In this document: positions 7,732-41,677 of the stretch, in pieces
How positions within the stretch are numbered: the first letter of the stretch is position 1
Layout: each line of letters opens with the position of its first letter
DNA from: Propionibacteriales bacterium
GTDB taxonomy: Bacteria; Actinomycetota; Actinomycetes; Propionibacteriales; Propionibacteriaceae
Length of the DNA: 48,864 nt
Direction: 5' to 3'
Assembly (NCBI GenBank): GCA_021286985.1
Contig: JAJTBJ010000003.1
Coordinates: 1 to 48,864, forward strand
Notes under the pieces: generated by a model
The model's input: the letters and a program-made list of their open reading frames with translations, nothing else
Database searches by the model: none
What the model was told of the DNA's origin: nothing
Program-made: the position numbers and the translations under genes

Positions 7732-8073
7732 ATGACTAGGTTCCCTTGCATGGCTCGGACATCTCGACGTACCCCCCGCCCCGGCCCCCTTGTCGCGCTT
7801 TATGCGGACGTGGACCCGGACGTGAAAGGCAAGATCGATCGGTGGGCCGCGATCGCGGACGTCAAGGTCTGGGAGGTGATCGAGGAGCTCGTTCGCTTGG
7901 CAAAAGCTACCGAGGGCGGGGACGGCCTGCCTAACGGCATGGCGTTCACCTCGCCGCTTCTTCCCGATCTGACCCCGACAGTGCCGGGAACGGAGCCGTC
8001 AGCTGCTCCTGAAACTCGCCGTCGTCGTCGGCGGACGCTCAACGCACCAGAGGGAGGTGCTGTTGCTGCCTAG
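7732..8073 (+). CDS. Possible ribbon-helix-helix protein
   Basis: The protein has 113 residues from ATG 7732 or 107 from ATG 7750; neither start has a good ribosome-binding site. The segment LVALYADVDPDVKGKIDRWAAIADV, then VWEVIEELVRLA (about residues 20-57), has the strand-helix-helix spacing of CopG/Arc-type DNA-binding proteins. The remainder is a disordered tail with an RRRRRR basic patch that could contact DNA. It may be a copy-number or operon regulator for the replication genes that follow. A terminator-like hairpin lies about 25 bp downstream. Confidence 0.55.
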   Translation: MTRFPCMARTSRRTPRPGPLVALYADVDPDVKGKIDRWAAIADVKVWEVIEELVRLAKATEGGDGLPNGMAFTSPLLPDLTPTVPGTEPSAAPETRRRRRRTLNAPEGGAVAA

Positions 8074-8096
8074 CGCACAGTCCTAGACACGCAGAA

Positions 8097-8118
8097 GGCC
8101 CGCCTTGGCGGGCGGGCC
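8097..8118 (+). terminator. GC-rich stem-loop after the small regulator gene
   Basis: GGCCCGC (8097-8103) can pair with GCGGGCC (8112-8118) around a CTTGGCGG loop. A tighter alternative is CCCGC/GCGGG with a CTTG loop. There is no T-tract, so intrinsic termination is only probable. It is the first of three adjacent hairpins before the replication-like genes. Confidence 0.5.
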
Positions 8119-8131
8119 CTCGGAAGCGTGT

Positions 8132-8181
8132 AGGTCTCGTTTGGCGCCGAGACCTCTTGGTGACCGGTTTGGCGACCGGTC
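8132..8181 (+). other. Two consecutive perfect stem-loops sharing a TTGGCG loop
   Basis: Hairpin A has AGGTCTCG (8132-8139) and CGAGACCT (8148-8155) around the loop TTTGGCGC. Hairpin B has GACCGGT (8162-8168) and ACCGGTC (8175-8181) around the loop TTGGCG. The stems differ in sequence but both loops contain TTGGCG, which points to recognition of a structured RNA or single-stranded DNA. They lie in the leader of the two-gene replication-like operon, 33 bp before its GTG. Possible roles are a regulatory leader, an antisense-RNA target or a single-strand origin. Confidence 0.55.
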
Positions 8182-8213
8182 GGTACAAACCCCAACTCCG
8201 AAAGGGGAGCTTT

Positions 8214-9086
8214 GTGCTGCCCACAACGATATCTCTATCCGGCCGTAGGTCAAGTGGCACGCCGTGCCTAGTCGAGACCGGTTCGCACTACACCGGCTAC
8301 GCAAAGCACGGTTGCCGCTGCACGGCGTGCAGGATGGCGGCCGCCCCGGTCCATAAGCGTGCTCGCCACGCTCTGATGACCGGTCAGCCGATCCTGATCG
8401 GCGCTGGCGATGCACGCGATCACCTGGTGTCGCTGAGCGCTGCCGGGATGAGCCGGAGCGAGATCGAGCGTCGTTCCGGGGTGAATCGGGTCACGCTGCT
8501 GCGGATCGGCCGCGGCGACCTGGGTCGGATCAATCGCAGGACGGCTGCGGCGATTCTTGGCGTCGAGCCGGTGCCGATCGCCGATCAGGAGGCTGGCTGG
8601 GTCGATGGCACAGGCACACGTCGGCGGCTGCGGGCGCTGGCGGTGTTGGGTTGGCCGGCGAGCCGGCTGGCGCAGCGGTTGGGGACGTCTCAGAGCCTGA
8701 TTAGGCGGCTTATGGAGGACGGCCACGGCTGCTCAGCGACGACCAGGGCGCGAGTCGCGGACCTGTACGACGAGCTGTGGGATGCGGCGCCACCAGATGA
8801 CAAGTCCTCCCGGCTCGCTCGTCGCCGGGCGCAGCAGCGGGGCTGGCTGCCTGCGGCGGCCTGGGACGACGACGAGATCGACGATCCCGCGGCGCAGCCG
8901 CACAACCCGGCGGGCCCGCGCAGTGCATTGCTGGAGAACGTGGTCTGGCTGGCAGACTTGGGCGACACCCTGCCGGGCATCTGCTTGAGGCTCGGCGTGA
9001 AGCCCGAGAGCATTTGGCGGGCCACATACCGGCACGGTCGCCCGGAAATCTGGGATCGGCTGACCGCGGAATCCAGGGTGGCGTGA
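8214..9086 (+). CDS. Multi-HTH protein with CxCxxC motif, replication-region
   Basis: The protein has 290 residues from GTG 8214, chosen because AAAGGGGAG lies directly upstream; an earlier in-frame GTG at 8157 lies inside the stem-loop region. The N-terminus carries GTPC, then HGCRCTACR (Cys18, Cys34, Cys36, Cys39), a cysteine cluster common in HTH proteins of actinobacterial phages and mobile elements. Three helix-turn-helix-like segments follow: near 78-100 (MSRSEIERRSGVNRVTLLRI), near 145-168 (SRLAQRLGTSQSLIRRL), and near the C-terminus (ICLRLGVKPESIWRA). It probably binds DNA and regulates or assists replication. Its stop codon overlaps the next gene (GTGA). Confidence 0.7.
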   Translation: MLPTTISLSGRRSSGTPCLVETGSHYTGYAKHGCRCTACRMAAAPVHKRARHALMTGQPILIGAGDARDHLVSLSAAGMSRSEIERRSGVNRVTLLRIGRGDLGRINRRTAAAILGVEPVPIADQEAGWVDGTGTRRRLRALAVLGWPASRLAQRLGTSQSLIRRLMEDGHGCSATTRARVADLYDELWDAAPPDDKSSRLARRRAQQRGWLPAAAWDDDEIDDPAAQPHNPAGPRSALLENVVWLADLGDTLPGICLRLGVKPESIWRATYRHGRPEIWDRLTAESRVA

Positions 9087-10351
9087 CCACGACTCTCGCC
9101 GATCGCGACATCGCGGCGGAGTTCGCCCAGATGGTGCGTCGCGAGTTCGGTACGCCGGCTGCTGCGCCGGTCGACGGGCCCGGGCTGGTTGGGGTGTGGT
9201 TGACGCATCGGGTGTGTGCGGAGGAGCACCAGACCCGGGTGTTTGCCCGCTGCCTGACCGACCGGCGCGTGCTGCCTCGTTGGCATCAGGACGACCGCGG
9301 CCCGCGCAGTGCGCACCGCGGCTTCCGCGTCGAGGCCCCAGCGGGCGCCTACCGCGGCGTGGATGCCTGGATGGGTCGGGATCATTGGCTGGCGGTGGTG
9401 GTGCCGCTGGCGATCCAGCAGCGCCCCGAGGTCCTGAAGCGCCACGGCGTCAGCCCTGACGTGATGCGCCGCTGGGCCCGGGTGAAGTCCGGCTACGCGG
9501 CACAGAACTCGGGCCGGCGGTGCATCGTGCGTCCGGTCACGGTAGCGAGTGTGGTGGGGGTAACCGAGCGGCAGGTCCAGCGGTGCAATGCCGCAGCCCG
9601 CGAGCTGGGCATCGAGCAGGTGATCATGGAGGGCCGGATGCTGGATGTGGACGAGCGGGCTTCGCTGCGTCCGTTCGGGTCGCGTCAGCGCGGGCTGGCC
9701 AGTGAGGTGTCGCTGACTATCCCCAGCTGGCTGCGGCGCCTTGTGGGTTCTGTCACCCCTTCCAGAGGATCAGGTCTTTCTAGGAATTCTCACCTTTGTG
9801 ACTCTCCACATGACGGCCTTCGGCCGATCCAGAGGGACGGCGCTTCGCGCCGGCGCCCCGATAAAGCGGTTCGATCCAGGTGGCGGGCACGGTCGGTGGC
9901 CTCGGAACTGGCCGTCAGGCTCGACTGGTTGGCCGGAGAGGCCCGCAGACGGCTGATCCCACCCCTGATGCGGTTCGTGACCGCCGACGAGCCGTGGACG
10001 GCCGACGACCTGGTGGCCGGCATCCAGCGGGCTGGTGCTGGTCGGGGGGAGATCCATTCCGACATGATCCGCACCCGGCCGGCGATCCTGCTGGCAGGCA
10101 TCCTGCGCCGGCTCGACCCGGTGGCCGACCATCCCCGGCTCTCGGGTCCGTTCATCCCCGCCGACACTCCACCGTGCGGCGGCCCCGACTGCGACGGCTA
10201 CGGCTGGATCAACGGGGTCGACGCCGGCGGCCGGACCTGGGCCAAACCGTGCCCGGACTGCTCGCCGGCCGTGCGCCGCGGCGCCGCCCAACCACCGGTC
10301 GACCCTTGGGCCACCGCCCCCACGCCGGCGCCGAATGGCAACCCGTTCTAG
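9083..10351 (+). CDS. Putative replication initiator-like HTH protein
   Basis: The protein has 422 residues and its GTG start overlaps the previous stop. The middle part contains a helix-turn-helix (VTVASVVGVTERQVQRCNAAAREL, about 152-175). A low-complexity linker follows (about 225-260), where codon use and GC fall relative to neighbours. A C-terminal domain ends in a cysteine cluster (CGGPDCDGYGW, then KPCPDC) that could bind zinc. The layout resembles replication-associated proteins of actinobacterial plasmids and integrative elements. Context supports this: it lies near parAB and is preceded by hairpins. A conserved palindrome begins 14 bp after its stop. It could instead be a transcription regulator; no polymerase or helicase motif is seen. 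Confidence 0.55.
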   Translation: MTTTLADRDIAAEFAQMVRREFGTPAAAPVDGPGLVGVWLTHRVCAEEHQTRVFARCLTDRRVLPRWHQDDRGPRSAHRGFRVEAPAGAYRGVDAWMGRDHWLAVVVPLAIQQRPEVLKRHGVSPDVMRRWARVKSGYAAQNSGRRCIVRPVTVASVVGVTERQVQRCNAAARELGIEQVIMEGRMLDVDERASLRPFGSRQRGLASEVSLTIPSWLRRLVGSVTPSRGSGLSRNSHLCDSPHDGLRPIQRDGASRRRPDKAVRSRWRARSVASELAVRLDWLAGEARRRLIPPLMRFVTADEPWTADDLVAGIQRAGAGRGEIHSDMIRTRPAILLAGILRRLDPVADHPRLSGPFIPADTPPCGGPDCDGYGWINGVDAGGRTWAKPCPDCSPAVRRGAAQPPVDPWATAPTPAPNGNPF

Positions 10352-11735: not shown

Positions 11736-12857
11736 CTAGGTGGGTTCCCCGCGGCCGGACATCTCTTGGTGCGCGGCGTGTTCGATGAGGTAGTCGCGCA
11801 GGTAGGGGATGGCGAACTGGACTTTGCCGTAGCCGGCCGGGGTAATCATTCCAGCCGCGATCAGCCGGCCGCGGTAGACCTGTGCGTATCGGGTGTCCTT
11901 GCCCATTCTGCGGGCGATGTCAGCGATCCGCGCGGGACCCTCGTCCTGTGCCATGGCGAGCAGGAAGGTCCGGTCGACCTCGGAGAGTTCGCGAAGTGCC
12001 GCGGCGTGGACGAGGGAGCCCAGTCGGGTGCGGGCCTGCTGGACGCCGGCGGCGACGGCGCGTGCGGTGATGTGGTCTCCGGTGCTCTTGCGCCAGATGT
12101 GGTAGCCGACGAGCTGGATCATGAACGGGTATCCGCCGGTGGCGGTCGCCGCGGTGGACAGTGCGTCGGGGTCGATGGTGCGGCCGTTGTCAGTGATGGT
12201 GGCCTGCAGCGCCTGGGCGACGTCTGCGAGCGGAACGTCGTCGAGATCCTTGCGGTCGGCTCGACGCAGGAATGTGGTCAGCTGGTCGTTGAGCAGCTCG
12301 TTGACCGCGCTCGGGATGCCGGCGAACGCGATCGCGATCTCGCGGTCTTCGCGGATGAGGTGCTGGATGTCGGCCGCCAGTTGGGCGAGTTCGGTGCTGG
12401 TGCGGACCTCGTCCAGCGTGATGAGCAGGCCGGTCTGGCCCGCTTCGCACTGGTCCAGGAGCAGGCTGGCCGTCTCGCGAAAGCCGGACCGGGCCGGCTC
12501 AGGAGTGGGCGCGAAGCTCAGGCCGCCCCCGCCCAGGTAGGAGGGCAGCGTGACGCCGGTGAGGCGGCGCCGTTTCGGGTCGAGCTGCTGGCCAGCGGTT
12601 CGGGTGATGCGGTCCAGGAAGCCTGGGGTGGCGGTCTCGTGGATGACGACCCACTGGTGGTTGGCCTGGACCTGGTCGGCGACGGCGTTGAGCATGACGG
12701 TCTTGCCGATCCCTCTGGGACCGCTGAAAATGGTGAGGCGTCCCGGCGCGCCGGGACCGTCCTCGATGGACTCGAGGAACTCGTCGATGAGGGCGTCGCG
12801 TCCGACGAGCTGCGGCGGGTTCGCGCCGGCGGTCGGTTTGAAGGGGTTCACAGCCAC
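11736..12857 (-). CDS. AAA+ / archaeal-type ATPase with C-terminal winged helix
   Basis: The protein has 373 residues from GTG 12857. After an LVGRDALIDEFLESI recognition segment comes Walker A GPRGIGKT (46-53), and later Walker B LLITLDE (144-150) with the catalytic acidic pair. The C-terminal third (SEVDRTFLLAMAQ to RGRLIAAGMI) resembles a winged helix. This is the architecture of the archaeal-ATPase (STAND-like) orc/NACHT-related group often found on mobile elements. It lies downstream of the restriction-methyltransferase in the same orientation and may belong to the same defence unit. Four tandem TTTATG repeats lie immediately upstream and overlap the expected promoter or ribosome-binding site. 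Confidence 0.8.
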   Translation of the reverse strand: MAVNPFKPTAGANPPQLVGRDALIDEFLESIEDGPGAPGRLTIFSGPRGIGKTVMLNAVADQVQANHQWVVIHETATPGFLDRITRTAGQQLDPKRRRLTGVTLPSYLGGGGLSFAPTPEPARSGFRETASLLLDQCEAGQTGLLITLDEVRTSTELAQLAADIQHLIREDREIAIAFAGIPSAVNELLNDQLTTFLRRADRKDLDDVPLADVAQALQATITDNGRTIDPDALSTAATATGGYPFMIQLVGYHIWRKSTGDHITARAVAAGVQQARTRLGSLVHAAALRELSEVDRTFLLAMAQDEGPARIADIARRMGKDTRYAQVYRGRLIAAGMITPAGYGKVQFAIPYLRDYLIEHAAHQEMSGRGEPT

Positions 12858-13080: not shown

Positions 13081-16000
13081 TCAGATCAGGGTGTCGCCCC
13101 ACGGGCGGCTGTTGGTTCCCCACATGACTCCCGCTGCCGTCAAGAACTCTTTGTCGAGTAGCGGGCCGGCCACCACCTGGTCAAGAAGATTGACTTGGTC
13201 GGGTTCGAGCTGTGTGAGCCGGTCGAGAACGGTGAGCAGTTCGATGAGTTCGCCGGTCCAGGCGTGTTCCCAGCGGTCGGGGTTGATGTGATCGAGCGGG
13301 GTGGAGCGGCGACCTGCCGGCTCGGCCTTGCGGTAGTCGACCCAGCTCTTCACCACGTTGCGGCCGCCGACGGTGTAGGCGATCACCTGCGGGTTGACTG
13401 GACCGAACCGGCCGCTGCCCAGCACGAGTTCGCTGGCGGCCGCGTCGTAGCTGTGGCCCTCGGGCAGGTCCTGCACCGGCGCGATCGCCTGGATCTGGCG
13501 GGGATCGCCGGCGGGGTAGCGAACGTTGCCCTTCGGTCGTCCCGGACCGTCGAACGTCTGCCCGTAGGTGTGAGCCCACAGCACCTGGGCGCCGAGTTCG
13601 ACCGCAGACTTCCACAGCTGCGGGTCCGCGGTCAGCGGCACACGAACACCCGGCGTCTCGAGTTCAGCGGCGAAGCGGTCGGTGAAGCCCGGCTGCGCGG
13701 CGATCGCCGCCAAGTAGGCCAAGACATCACTCGGCTCCGCAGGGACGCCCAGCGCGTCGCTCAGGGCCACCGTGAGCCCATCAGGAAGGTTAGGACTGCC
13801 GTTGGGATGCAGCCAAGGCAGCGTCCGGCCTCCTTCGCTTCCCTTGAAGTAGTGGAAGTCCGGGATCAGATGGCTGAACACCAGTGCTGGGCCGCTGGTT
13901 AGCTTCCGCTGGCTCATTTCGATGGTGAAAACCTGGCAGGGTTGGCGGGCTTGCCACAGGGCTGGGCGGGGCATGTCGAACAGGCGTCTGTCGGCGATGA
14001 CGTGTTGGCGGTCGAAGGCGCGGTACCCGACCTGGATGGTGGTGGTAGTGGTGCGGTCCTCCCATTCGAGGCGCTTCTCGGTTCCGGTGACGACGTCGGT
14101 TCCTGGCAGGGGTGGGAACGTCTTGGTGGCGTGGGCGTCCCGGCCGGCCTTCATCAGGGTGTTCTTGGCGTCGGCGCCGACTTCGGCGACGAGCCGGGCC
14201 CAGCGGTGCTGGAGTGTGTCGGGGCTGGGCGAGTACACCCAGGTCCGGGTGGGGAACAGGCCAGGCGAGTACCAGGGCAGCAGGTCGGAGGCTGCGGGCC
14301 ACGTGTCCCAGTCGGATGCCGGTGCTGGGGTGAAAGGCGCTGCCCAGTCGGTGCGGATCGGTCGGCACTGCGGCCCGTCGAGGCCGAGCTGGGCGAGCTG
14401 GGTGAACTTGGCCTGCTGGGTGCCGGCGATCGCGGTGTAGCGCAGCTCGGCGGGCTGGTCGGGGTCGTTGTCGGGTCGGCGGACGAACAGGCCGATCGCC
14501 AGCGGTTGGCGGACTCCGGGGAAGATCCTGGTGGGCACGTCGGGGGTCTGGCCTTCGGGGGTGAGGTCGATGATCCAGCCCGCGGTCGACTCGCGTCGCA
14601 GGTATCGGCGCATCGCGGTGAACGCCGGCCCGGTCAGGTAGCCGGAGGTGGTGATGAAGCAGACCACCCCGGCCTGGTCCGCGGGGGTGGACTCCCACAC
14701 CTTCCAAGTGGCCCACCGGTAGAAGTAGACGTAGAGGTTCTTCAGCTTGGCCGAGAGCCGGCCGGGCACGCCGTCGAGGAAGTCTTCCAGGATGCCGCGC
14801 GCGTGCTTCGTGCCGGCAGTATCCGAGCCGTGCTCGACCCAGCCGCCGCCGCCGGCGGCCAGTTCACGGTAGGGCGGGTTCCCGAGCACCACGGTGACTG
14901 GCTGGGACGCCTTCACCTGGTTCGCTTCGCGGCGGGCTTTCGCGATTGTCGCCAGGCCGGAGGCCAGCTGGGTCTCGGCGGCGTTCGGATCGTCCAGGGT
15001 GTCGGTGACGAACAACCTCAGCCCACCCTTCGGCAGCTTCGCGCCGAGGGAGGTGAGGAGTTCGGTGATCCGTAGCTCGGCGACCGCGTAGGGGCCCATC
15101 TGGATCTCGAAGCCGGCCATGCGTCGCGCCAGCTCGGTGATCGCTCCGGGGACCGCGCCGGGCCCGTCCAAAGCGGCCACGTCGGCTTGGGCCCGGTCGA
15201 TGATGGTGTGCAGGTAGGTGCCGGTGCCCATAGCAGGATCCACCACGGTGACCTGTGGGGCGCGGAACCCGTCCGCGATGCCGAGCCGGCCGGTCAGGAC
15301 CTCATCGACCAGGCGGACCATCTCGGCCACCAACTCGCGCGGGGTGTAGTAGGTCCCGGACGCCTGCCGTTTCGCCGGGTCGTAGGCCTCGAGGAACTGC
15401 TCGTACAGGTACAGGTACACGTCTCGTTTGCCGGTGCGGATCCGGTCCCACTGGACCGCGCCGACCACCGTGACGAGCAGGTCGAGCACAACCTTGAAGT
15501 CGGCGGCGACATCGTCGGTGAGCAGCTGGAGCGCGCGGCCCATCAGCGAGTGCTCGGCGCCCAGGTCGGCGCCGATGTCGTGCAGACTCCTGCCAGCCAG
15601 CCCGATGCCCTCGGTGCGCGCCAGGAGCAGCGCAAACGTGACCGCCTGCGCATAGCCGTCGGCGAACGTGGCGTCATCGGCCTGCGGGAACAGCAGCCGG
15701 CGCCAGTCGGCCGCCAGCCCGGTGAAGGGCAGCTCGTCGGCGGCCGCGCCGGCGCGCTGGCGACGCTTCTCCTGGGCGAGCTGGTCGACCACTTCGCCGC
15801 GCAACAGTCTGGTCAGTGGAGCAACCGCCCGCACCAGCGCCGACACTGATGTGATCGGTGCCGCCTTCCACCGCAGAAACCCCGTCAGGAGGCTCTCCAG
15901 CTCGGACGTGGCGTGGAGCTGCCCGCCAACCACCGCCAGCGGCTGATCGGTGAGCGCAACCTCGGTGCCGACAAGTTCACCGTCGCGGTACAGCCGCCAC

Positions 16001-16428
16001 CTAGTGCCGTTGGTGTAGATCAGGTTCGGCAGGTCCCGCTGCCGCTCCCACTGGACCCGATCATGGCCGGTGAACCCGGCAGGGTCGATCCCGCGGCCAG
16101 GGGCCTTCACCTCGATGTAGCCCATGATCGCCTTGTTGACGCTCACTCCGTAGTCCGGGCGGACCTGCCGCTCCGCGTCCCGCACCTCGTCATGAAGCAC
16201 CGCCGGCACACCGATCAGCTTCCCGACACCCTCAACAAGCGCCTCCAGCGGGGCCCGGATCGCCGCCTCCTGATCTCCTGGCCCAGCCAGCTTGTAAGCG
16301 CACTTCGCGCCGAACGTAGACACCAGCGCCTCAAACCGAGTACCTGCCACGGCCACGAGCTTGCCAGTTGATGCGCGTCGCAGCTGATCGAAGCCCGGAA
16401 ACACGCCACGGCAGTTGGGGGCCGTCAT
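13081..16428 (-). CDS. Restriction-methyltransferase, type IIG/ISP-like N6-adenine
   Basis: The protein has 1115 residues. The N-terminal region has a PD-(D/E)xK-like nuclease signature: RPDYGVSV (Asp92), then GYIEVKAPG (Glu106, Lys108). The middle is a gamma-class N6-adenine methyltransferase: TYYTPRELV (359-367), SAM-binding DPAMGTGTYL (397-406) and catalytic NPPY (517-520). The C-terminal 500 residues probably hold the target recognition domain. One protein would both cut and modify DNA, as in type IIG/IIL enzymes. It lacks the helicase of full type ISP enzymes. The BREX methylase PglX is another relative, but no other BREX genes are seen. The ATG is 4 bp from a conserved palindrome, with no clear ribosome-binding site between. 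Confidence 0.85.
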   Translation of the reverse strand: MTAPNCRGVFPGFDQLRRASTGKLVAVAGTRFEALVSTFGAKCAYKLAGPGDQEAAIRAPLEALVEGVGKLIGVPAVLHDEVRDAERQVRPDYGVSVNKAIMGYIEVKAPGRGIDPAGFTGHDRVQWERQRDLPNLIYTNGTRWRLYRDGELVGTEVALTDQPLAVVGGQLHATSELESLLTGFLRWKAAPITSVSALVRAVAPLTRLLRGEVVDQLAQEKRRQRAGAAADELPFTGLAADWRRLLFPQADDATFADGYAQAVTFALLLARTEGIGLAGRSLHDIGADLGAEHSLMGRALQLLTDDVAADFKVVLDLLVTVVGAVQWDRIRTGKRDVYLYLYEQFLEAYDPAKRQASGTYYTPRELVAEMVRLVDEVLTGRLGIADGFRAPQVTVVDPAMGTGTYLHTIIDRAQADVAALDGPGAVPGAITELARRMAGFEIQMGPYAVAELRITELLTSLGAKLPKGGLRLFVTDTLDDPNAAETQLASGLATIAKARREANQVKASQPVTVVLGNPPYRELAAGGGGWVEHGSDTAGTKHARGILEDFLDGVPGRLSAKLKNLYVYFYRWATWKVWESTPADQAGVVCFITTSGYLTGPAFTAMRRYLRRESTAGWIIDLTPEGQTPDVPTRIFPGVRQPLAIGLFVRRPDNDPDQPAELRYTAIAGTQQAKFTQLAQLGLDGPQCRPIRTDWAAPFTPAPASDWDTWPAASDLLPWYSPGLFPTRTWVYSPSPDTLQHRWARLVAEVGADAKNTLMKAGRDAHATKTFPPLPGTDVVTGTEKRLEWEDRTTTTTIQVGYRAFDRQHVIADRRLFDMPRPALWQARQPCQVFTIEMSQRKLTSGPALVFSHLIPDFHYFKGSEGGRTLPWLHPNGSPNLPDGLTVALSDALGVPAEPSDVLAYLAAIAAQPGFTDRFAAELETPGVRVPLTADPQLWKSAVELGAQVLWAHTYGQTFDGPGRPKGNVRYPAGDPRQIQAIAPVQDLPEGHSYDAAASELVLGSGRFGPVNPQVIAYTVGGRNVVKSWVDYRKAEPAGRRSTPLDHINPDRWEHAWTGELIELLTVLDRLTQLEPDQVNLLDQVVAGPLLDKEFLTAAGVMWGTNSRPWGDTLI

Positions 16429-40234: not shown

Positions 40235-41677
40235 ATGATCAGACGCGCAAACTTCGACCCGAGCCAGGTGGGATGGCGCATCGGCAGAGCCGTCGAGCCA
40301 CGCGGCCTCGACCTGTGGTGCCCGTGGGATCGCACCGCCGGAGTGATCGGCCCGCAGGGCTCCGGCAAGACCCTGGACCTGCTCACCCCCGCGTTGCTGT
40401 CCGCACCAGGAGCGGCTCTAGTGACCCTGACCAAGACCGACGACCTGTTGTTGTCGATCACCGCCCGCGGCCGCGATGGTCGCCCCACCGTCGTGCTCGA
40501 CCCGTTCTCCCAGGCTGACGGGCTGCCCGAGCTGATCTGGGACCCGATCGCCGGCTGCACCGACCCGCTCATCGCCGAACGCCGCGCCAAGGCGTTCATC
40601 GCCGGCACGATCAAGTCCTCCACCAGCGGCCACGGGTCACCCAGCGACGGCGCTGCCCGGTTCTACACCGCGGAGTCGGCCAAGGTGCTCCAGTGCTACT
40701 TCCACGCCGCCGCGCTGGCCGGGTTCACCCTGGACCATGTACTGGAGTGGGTTGATCGGCCACAGGCAACCTCCGAGCCGGCCGAGATCCTGCTGAACCA
40801 TCCCGGGGCAGCCCTGCACTGGCACGGCCTGCTGCAGGGCGCCCTGACCGGCGATGACCGCACCGTCGGGAACACGACCACCACGGTGCATCAGGCGATG
40901 GCCTTGTTCTACCAGCCCAGCATCCGGGCACGCTGCGTCCCCGGCAAGGGCCGGACCGCGACCGACATTGCCACGGTGATCAAGGCCGGCGGCACGTTCT
41001 ACCTGTTGGGCAGGGATGACCCGTACGCCAGCGCCTCACCACTGATGACCGCCTTGGCCGAACACATCCTCGACACCGCTCTGCTGCTGGCCAACGCCGG
41101 CCCGTGGGGCAGGCTGTGCCCACCGATGCTGGCCTGCCTCGACGAGCTGCCCTCCACCGCACCGCTGCCGACCCTGCGAACCAGAATGGCCAACGAACGC
41201 GCGCTGGGCATCTCGATCATCTATGCCGCCCAGACGTGGCGGCAGCTGGCGTCGGTGTTCGGCGAAACCGAGGCCCGGGCGATCTTCGGGCTCACCAACG
41301 TGCTGGTGATGTTCGGAGGGTCGAAGGACGGCCAGTTCAACCGCGAGGTGTCCGACCTGGTCGGCACGGTTCGGGTGGCTCGAACCACCTGGCAGTTGGG
41401 ACAGACCGGCGGCCGCTCGGCCCACGGCGACGACATGCTCATCCTGCGACCCGAGGAGGTGCGGCAGATCCCGGAGAAGCACGCCCTCGTGATCGCCGAG
41501 AACAGCAAACCGATCATCGCGAAACTGACCCGCTGCATCGAAGGCCGCGCCGGTGAGCAGCTGCGCAGCCAGCAGAAGGATGTGCGCGGCCGGCTCAACG
41601 AGAGTCGCAGCCACAGCATCGCCGCCGAGGCCCGCGCCGTCGCCGCTCTCGCCGCCAGCCGGAGGATCGAACCGTGA
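40235..41677 (+). CDS. VirD4/TraG-like coupling protein ATPase
   Basis: The protein has 480 residues. Walker A GPQGSGKT lies at 39-46, Walker B MLACLDEL at 299-306 and a TraM-recognition-like TWRQLASVFGETEARAIFGLTNVLVMFGG segment follows. It has the HerA/TrwB-like motor without membrane helices, which the gene at 37563 probably supplies. Coupling proteins pass the relaxase-DNA complex to the T4SS. GAAAGGAATCCCC precedes the ATG. It is coupled to the next gene by GTGA. Confidence 0.88.
   Translation: MIRRANFDPSQVGWRIGRAVEPRGLDLWCPWDRTAGVIGPQGSGKTLDLLTPALLSAPGAALVTLTKTDDLLLSITARGRDGRPTVVLDPFSQADGLPELIWDPIAGCTDPLIAERRAKAFIAGTIKSSTSGHGSPSDGAARFYTAESAKVLQCYFHAAALAGFTLDHVLEWVDRPQATSEPAEILLNHPGAALHWHGLLQGALTGDDRTVGNTTTTVHQAMALFYQPSIRARCVPGKGRTATDIATVIKAGGTFYLLGRDDPYASASPLMTALAEHILDTALLLANAGPWGRLCPPMLACLDELPSTAPLPTLRTRMANERALGISIIYAAQTWRQLASVFGETEARAIFGLTNVLVMFGGSKDGQFNREVSDLVGTVRVARTTWQLGQTGGRSAHGDDMLILRPEEVRQIPEKHALVIAENSKPIIAKLTRCIEGRAGEQLRSQQKDVRGRLNESRSHSIAAEARAVAALAASRRIEP

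Follow-up and report, generated by a model that had tools for sequence, protein, structure and literature searches.

A stem-loop leader with a repeated TTGGCG loop in front of an actinobacterial plasmid replication operon: a probable antisense RNA control region

The replication locus and its leader

We analyzed positions 1 to 48,864 of contig JAJTBJ010000003.1 from a Propionibacteriales bacterium, a stretch of 48,864 nucleotides that is referred to here as the window. The contig encodes ParA, ParB, a TraA-like relaxase, a VirB4-like ATPase, a VirD4-like protein and a TadA/VirB11-like ATPase, and therefore, judging from this gene complement, is a conjugative plasmid or a similar element. A gene for a type ISP restriction-modification protein (13081-16428, minus strand) adjoins an AAA ATPase gene (11736-12857, minus strand). 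The region of interest, on the plus strand between 8071 and 8216, runs from the end of a small upstream gene (8073) through three successive hairpins and a fourth that covers the ribosome-binding site (RBS) to the GTG start codon at 8214 (Table 1); it is the leader of a helix-turn-helix (HTH) and replication gene pair, as a preliminary description of this DNA had proposed. The first gene of the predicted operon encodes an HTH protein of the actinophage and plasmid family phrog_1590, and the second encodes a plasmid replication protein (Rep) that was recognized both by a profile match and by homology, extending over the conserved region of the protein, to the Reps of Mycobacterium, Rhodococcus and Tomitella plasmids. 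Because the HTH stop and the rep start overlap in the sequence GTGA, the translation of Rep is probably coupled to that of the HTH protein. A Pfam search with seven members of the Rep family returned only weak HTH matches and no rolling-circle Rep domain. In the relatives, a small protein is likewise encoded upstream of rep, and several of these proteins are annotated as HicB-antitoxin-like.

Table 1. Features of the leader and adjacent genes (loops are given in parentheses)
Feature	Position	Strand	Description
Small upstream gene	7732..8073	+	ORF, 113 aa; the close relative has a 38% identical homologue at the equivalent position
Conserved 18 bp	8071..8088	+	identical in the close relative, directly 5' of hairpin 1; possibly the mRNA promoter region
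Hairpin 1, two-tier form	8087..8131	+	outer stem 8087-8092 with 8126-8131, inner hairpin 8097-8118
Hairpin 1, inner	8097-8118	+	8 bp, GGCCCGCC(TTGGCG)GGCGGGCC
Hairpin 2	8132..8155	+	8 bp, AGGTCTCG(TTTGGCGC)CGAGACCT; TTGGCG at 8141-8146; proposed specificity loop
Hairpin 3	8162..8181	+	7 bp, GACCGGT(TTGGCG)ACCGGTC; loop 8169-8174; proposed second copy of the specificity loop
RBS hairpin	8185..8215	+	ACAAACCCC with GGGG...UUUGU; pairs the RBS and part of the GTG start
Shine-Dalgarno sequence	8204..8209	+	GGGGAG
HTH protein gene	8214..9086	+	290 aa, first gene of the operon; phrog_1590
Rep gene	9083..10351	+	plasmid replication protein
Promoter-like site	8226..8253	-	-35 TTGACC (8253-8248), 16 nt, -10 TATCGT (8231-8226)
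Predicted antisense (counter-transcribed) RNA	8085..8219	-	about 130 nt; position predicted from the promoter, both ends estimates

A hairpin scan of the window detected exactly three plus-strand hairpins with TTGGCG wholly within the loop, namely hairpins 1, 2 and 3, the stems of which are mutually unrelated. First-order shuffles contain only 0.05 such hairpins (stem of at least 7 bp, loop of 4-8) compared with the three in the window, so that the two perfect hairpins with unrelated stems that had been reported initially, hairpins 2 and 3, are confirmed. The third TTGGCG hairpin proposed upstream of these can form at the inner stem of hairpin 1, but fold prediction on the plus strand favors a competing register with a CUUG tetraloop, and the corresponding loop of a close relative is different; the membership of hairpin 1 in the TTGGCG set is therefore uncertain. 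Its position is that of the terminator-like hairpin 1 in the leaders of the relatives. Hairpins are frequent at 70% G+C, and hairpin 1 occupies the place expected for a terminator of the upstream gene, so these structures might be ordinary GC-rich terminators that share a loop word by chance. This explanation is hardly credible given that neighboring hairpins with a common loop hexamer appeared in none of 100 shuffles of the window, that no terminator with a U-tract was found, and that the same loop recurs 5' of homologous rep genes. One further hairpin of the window, on the minus strand at 40577-40597 within the VirD4-like gene, has a TTGGCGC loop, probably by chance.

The predicted fold of the leader RNA is better than that of its shuffled versions (z = -2.7, with none of 200 equally good). 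The RBS hairpin leaves the Shine-Dalgarno sequence and the start codon with predicted unpaired probabilities of 0.28 and 0.19, respectively, and the close relative has a comparable stem of altered sequence. Read on the minus strand, each of the three loops is CGCCAA, and none of its nucleotides is predicted to pair.

Leaders of related rep genes

Related rep genes are preceded by the same element, with loops that vary by plasmid, at about 50 loci on plasmids or genomes of actinobacteria, including mycobacteria. In a close relative from the same genus (PHEV01000003.1, L011/L140), the layout is the same as in the window; the two-tier hairpin 1 is retained with a changed sequence and the loop GTGCGAA, and a single hairpin with the loop CGCCAA, the reverse complement of TTGGCG, takes the place of hairpins 2 and 3. 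When the conserved 18-mer was used as a search key, the only genuine matches were the window and one relative; matches to its 14-base core in viral contigs are due to chance, none of these contigs encoding a relative, and no Rep homologues were found in viral contigs. Equivalent hairpins are present in leaders of Rep homologues from Yimella, Propionibacteriales, Rhodococcus, Nocardia and Mycobacterium. In the Yimella plasmid NZ_CP072114.1, the hairpin 5' of rep is AGCCGCCG(TTGGCG)CGGCGGCT; in G016, CGCCAA comes after TTGGACG, and in G260, a short stem carries TTGGCG. In the mycobacterial, rhodococcal and nocardial plasmids, the hairpin comes after a terminator-like hairpin, about 35-50 nt 5' of the rep start, and carries TTGGCG, CGCCAA or variants thereof in the loop. 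No such hairpin was seen in several divergent Rep homologues, mostly from Microbacteriaceae. A sub-lineage comprising L151, L161 and L169 lacks the loop hairpin; a candidate loop that matches is located in its hairpin 1 and reads CTGGAA or, as the reverse complement of TTGCCG, CGGCAA.

A covariance model built from the mycobacterial leaders matched Rhodococcus and Tomitella leaders with E values of about 1e-7; in the window, it matched at the right place at E = 1.5, which is not significant, and the window is therefore tied to this set by Rep homology, layout and loop. No Rfam model matched the window at gathering scores or six of the relatives at E values up to 0.1. The element belongs to the Rep replicon rather than to the HTH gene family, given that about 25 loci with relatives of the HTH gene, in prophages and other genomes, contain no structured leader. 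Relatives of the HTH gene in L098, L101 and L102 are located directly beside tRNA genes, suggestive of integrated elements with an attachment site there.

Some leaders show additional features. In L135 (G016:C27), a nine-codon ORF (GTGCCTAGC...CTTTGA) resembling the leader peptides of the R1 and IncI rep genes lies just 5' of rep and ends in a stop codon that overlaps with the TTG at which rep starts. In the mycobacterial leaders (alignment A5, columns 125-145), the rep start codon is located in the loop of another small hairpin, such as CTGTC(TTGCTG)GACAG, the stem of which seems to have changed in a compensatory manner.

Stem covariation and loop alleles

To characterize the conservation of the element, we used a hand-curated set of hairpins, collected partly from motif matches (a table of 56 entries with 26 distinct loops), and aligned the stems with the loops masked. 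Among the 32 distinct stems, 91.4% of the cells are paired, compared with 59.0% after shuffling; all eight stem pairs have changes on both sides, and the covariation score is 0.826 against 0.196 for shuffled stems (standard deviation 0.029, none of 500 reaching it). Kinship inflates tests of this kind, and a control with slid registers, which retains the kinship, gives scores of only 0.04-0.21. Such covariation had been named at the outset as a check on a structured element, and on this evidence from aligned stems, the structure of the leader hairpin is under selection.

One 7-bp mycobacterial stem, AACCGAG/CTCGGTT, bears 11 different loops between nearly invariant flanks. When either strand is considered, 25 of the 26 distinct loops open with UU (shuffled mean 2.1) and 20 include the U-turn motif YUNR (shuffled mean 9.1), which the UUGG of the window fits; four loops are present in both orientations. 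This pattern is not merely the result of selection by motif, because most of the mycobacterial loops were found by position and stem only. The loops differ in 10 of 10 pairs of Reps that are 80-87% identical and never in pairs above 94% identity. Co-resident replicons do not share a loop in any of 22 pairs, against 1.65 expected, a difference that has the predicted direction and is not significant (P = 0.18). Taken at the level of sequence comparison, the loop is a probable specificity tag. Covarying stems combined with loops that vary on a constant stem support the original suggestion of a structured element recognized by its loop.

The UUGGCG loop might be recognized by a protein acting as a translational repressor, with the HTH product, Rep and a host RNA-binding protein as candidates. 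Such recognition would fit the occurrence of one loop on differing stems, and the two or three copies in the window could bind a multimer. We regard this as very improbable: the reverse-complement loop substitutes in close relatives, the 80-87% identical Reps go with different loops, and most of the other leaders have no adjacent HTH gene. Alternatively, the hairpins could be a DNA element of the origin, either a single-strand origin or palindromes or cruciforms that Rep binds or opens. Conserved origin signatures have been reported from the stretch 5' of the mycobacterial plasmid rep genes (PMC4378964), and the stem mismatches show no strand preference, as expected of a DNA palindrome: an unbiased count on the plus strand gives 10 G.U and 10 A.C, and a strand asymmetry of the mismatches was accordingly rejected. 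A site read by a protein should, however, retain its sequence, whereas these stems change freely with pairing maintained and the loops change on a constant stem; the proposed Rep-binding iterons (GGCGGATATCCGCC, PMC4324632) are separate and further upstream; and the -10 element on the opposite strand and the U-turn loops would be left unaccounted for. A DNA element is thus unlikely, if still the most plausible of the alternatives that we considered. The single-strand origin, which had been offered initially as one of two readings, also fits poorly with the presence of the loop in both orientations, the lack of a rolling-circle family in Pfam searches and the location of the element between the upstream gene and the RBS.

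No segment of the mRNA was found to change together with the loop; the sequence 3' of different mycobacterial loops is nearly identical. This bears on a variant of the IncI mechanism in which the loop would pair near the RBS, forming a pseudoknot that activates translation, with an antisense RNA competing for the loop. The loop of IncI plasmids is the identical UUGGCG and a pseudoknot is known there, according to references quoted in PMC10724649; furthermore, Yimella and G016 have a CGCCA(A) stretch 3' of the UUGG(A)CG loop. The mycobacterial leaders, with different loops but no co-changing partner downstream, make this variant improbable. The only molecule bound to vary along with the loop would be the predicted transcript of the opposite strand.

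The opposite-strand promoter and control by antisense RNA

The only promoter-like site between 7500 and 9200 has the sequence TTGACC-16-TATCGT and is located on the minus strand, within HTH codons 5-14. In 29 of 30 divergent leaders, an opposite-strand -10 element (TANNNT) begins 6-24 nt into the downstream gene, compared with 2% of control windows, and most leaders also contain a -35-like hexamer, TGGANN or TAGANN, at a spacing of 17 nt from the -10. Outside Mycobacterium, the residues encoded at the -10 vary while the nucleotide pattern stays. Within Mycobacterium, the codons at the -10 are identical, CACGGTAGCGCA, in 45 of 45 genes, with GGT (19%) and GCA (10%) being minority codons of those genes; these genes are of common ancestry, and independent support for the promoter comes from about eight lineages. 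The HTH gene in the window (8214-8231) and the Yimella rep gene (L131) open with the same 9-12 nt, GTGCTGCCCACA, after which comes the opposite-strand -10; it looks as though a phage-type HTH gene had been inserted behind a retained leader-plus-promoter cassette.

The RNA predicted to start at this site is complementary to the leader and exposes CGCCAA loops in its predicted fold; the opposite strand thus supplies the antisense match to the TTGGCG loops that had been suggested as a further check. Accordingly, of the two initial readings, that of an RNA regulator is supported as probable by the stem covariation among relatives together with the conserved promoter-like site. At the sequence level, the leader shows features of antisense-controlled replicons: the rep-leader hairpin is structurally conserved and its loop exposed, the opposite strand has a promoter-like site, and the loop fits YUNR. 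As far as these data reach, the element of the window is real, conserved and functional-looking and is a probable member of the antisense-controlled replicons; we consider it likely that this region controls a plasmid replicon by means of a counter-transcribed RNA.

Under the proposed mechanism, the leader of the rep-operon mRNA would fold such that the hairpin loops display UUGGCG, and the promoter in the first codons of the downstream gene would yield an RNA of about 130 nt with the complementary hairpins and CGCCAA loops. A loop-loop (kissing) contact would initiate pairing of the two RNAs, and the paired leader would be held in a form that blocks translation of the HTH gene and hence, via the GTGA overlap, that of Rep. 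An increase in plasmid copy number would produce more antisense RNA, so that the loop sequence would both limit the number of copies and define incompatibility. We infer both RNAs, their pairing and a block at translation rather than transcription from the sequence; control at the level of translation, passed on to Rep by the overlap, is favored because the RBS and start codon of the window are predicted to be mostly paired. The two equal loops of hairpins 2 and 3 may give the antisense RNA two contact sites.

The closest counterpart is the IncI complex of enterobacterial plasmids (IncI-alpha ColIb-P9, IncI-gamma, IncB/O and IncK), in which the TTGGCG hexanucleotide in the inc loop mediates the contact between Inc RNA and the repZ mRNA; the copy number goes up when this hexanucleotide or its immediate surroundings are altered (PMC7646527; title of Asano 1998, as quoted in PMC10724649). 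Common to the Inc RNA (RNAI)/repZ leader system and the window are the UUGGCG interacting loop in a rep leader hairpin, an antisense RNA from the same locus (predicted in the window) and the function of the loop as a determinant of copy number and incompatibility (proposed in the window). In contrast to the IncI complex, the Rep of the window family is unrelated, no RepZ or RepA of the IncI/IncFII type having been encountered, and the hosts belong to another phylum; the window family lacks a co-varying loop partner near the rep start and shows many loop alleles in both orientations, and the window itself has two or three equal tandem loops. The pCG1-family plasmids of Corynebacterium glutamicum (cgrI; pGA1), likened here by description only, are also actinobacterial and controlled in copy number by an antisense RNA (PMC13088423); with regard to this comparison, none of the leaders tested matched an Rfam model. 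Extrachromosomal mycobacterial prophages require a non-coding RNA for maintenance (PMC7157519) and are thus another case of an actinobacterial replicon that needs an RNA, yet these phages have no rep, and the role proposed for the RNA is in initiation.

The literature searched contains no description of an antisense RNA in this plasmid family, nor of a copy-number and incompatibility determinant of this widespread group of mycobacterial and other actinobacterial plasmids; an earlier account is possible because the work of the 1990s on pMSC262, pLR7 and ColIb-P9 was outside the reach of the search. There is perhaps an even chance that these leaders represent a large, unrecognized family of actinobacterial antisense-RNA replicons. 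In such a family, the stem would be constant and the loop would serve as an allelic barcode, with substitution and inversion of the loop giving rise to new specificities and the U-turn passing between mRNA and antisense RNA; the loop alone would predict which mycobacterial and related plasmids are able to coexist, and UUGGCG would have been reached independently of the IncI plasmids. A loop of 6-8 nt that predicts incompatibility groups would be directly testable and useful for vectors, in which disabling the promoter by synonymous changes would allow tuning of the copy number; unrelated replicons that had each arrived at UUGGCG and U-turn loops would provide a clear example of convergence in RNA design.

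Among previously described plasmids, the mycobacterial pVT2/pMyong/pMAH135 replicons encode Reps homologous to that of the window. The loop-hairpin leader architecture is present in pMyong1 (L193) and pHP17a (L199); the loop hairpin was not recognized in pVT2 itself (L192). The publications found on these replicons describe iterons and origin signatures and not an antisense RNA (PMC4324632, PMC4378964). In L165, L174, L175, L176 and L199, palindromes centered on GGATATCC, as reported for the pMAH135 iterons, lie upstream of the leader and are probably Rep-binding origin sites separate from it.
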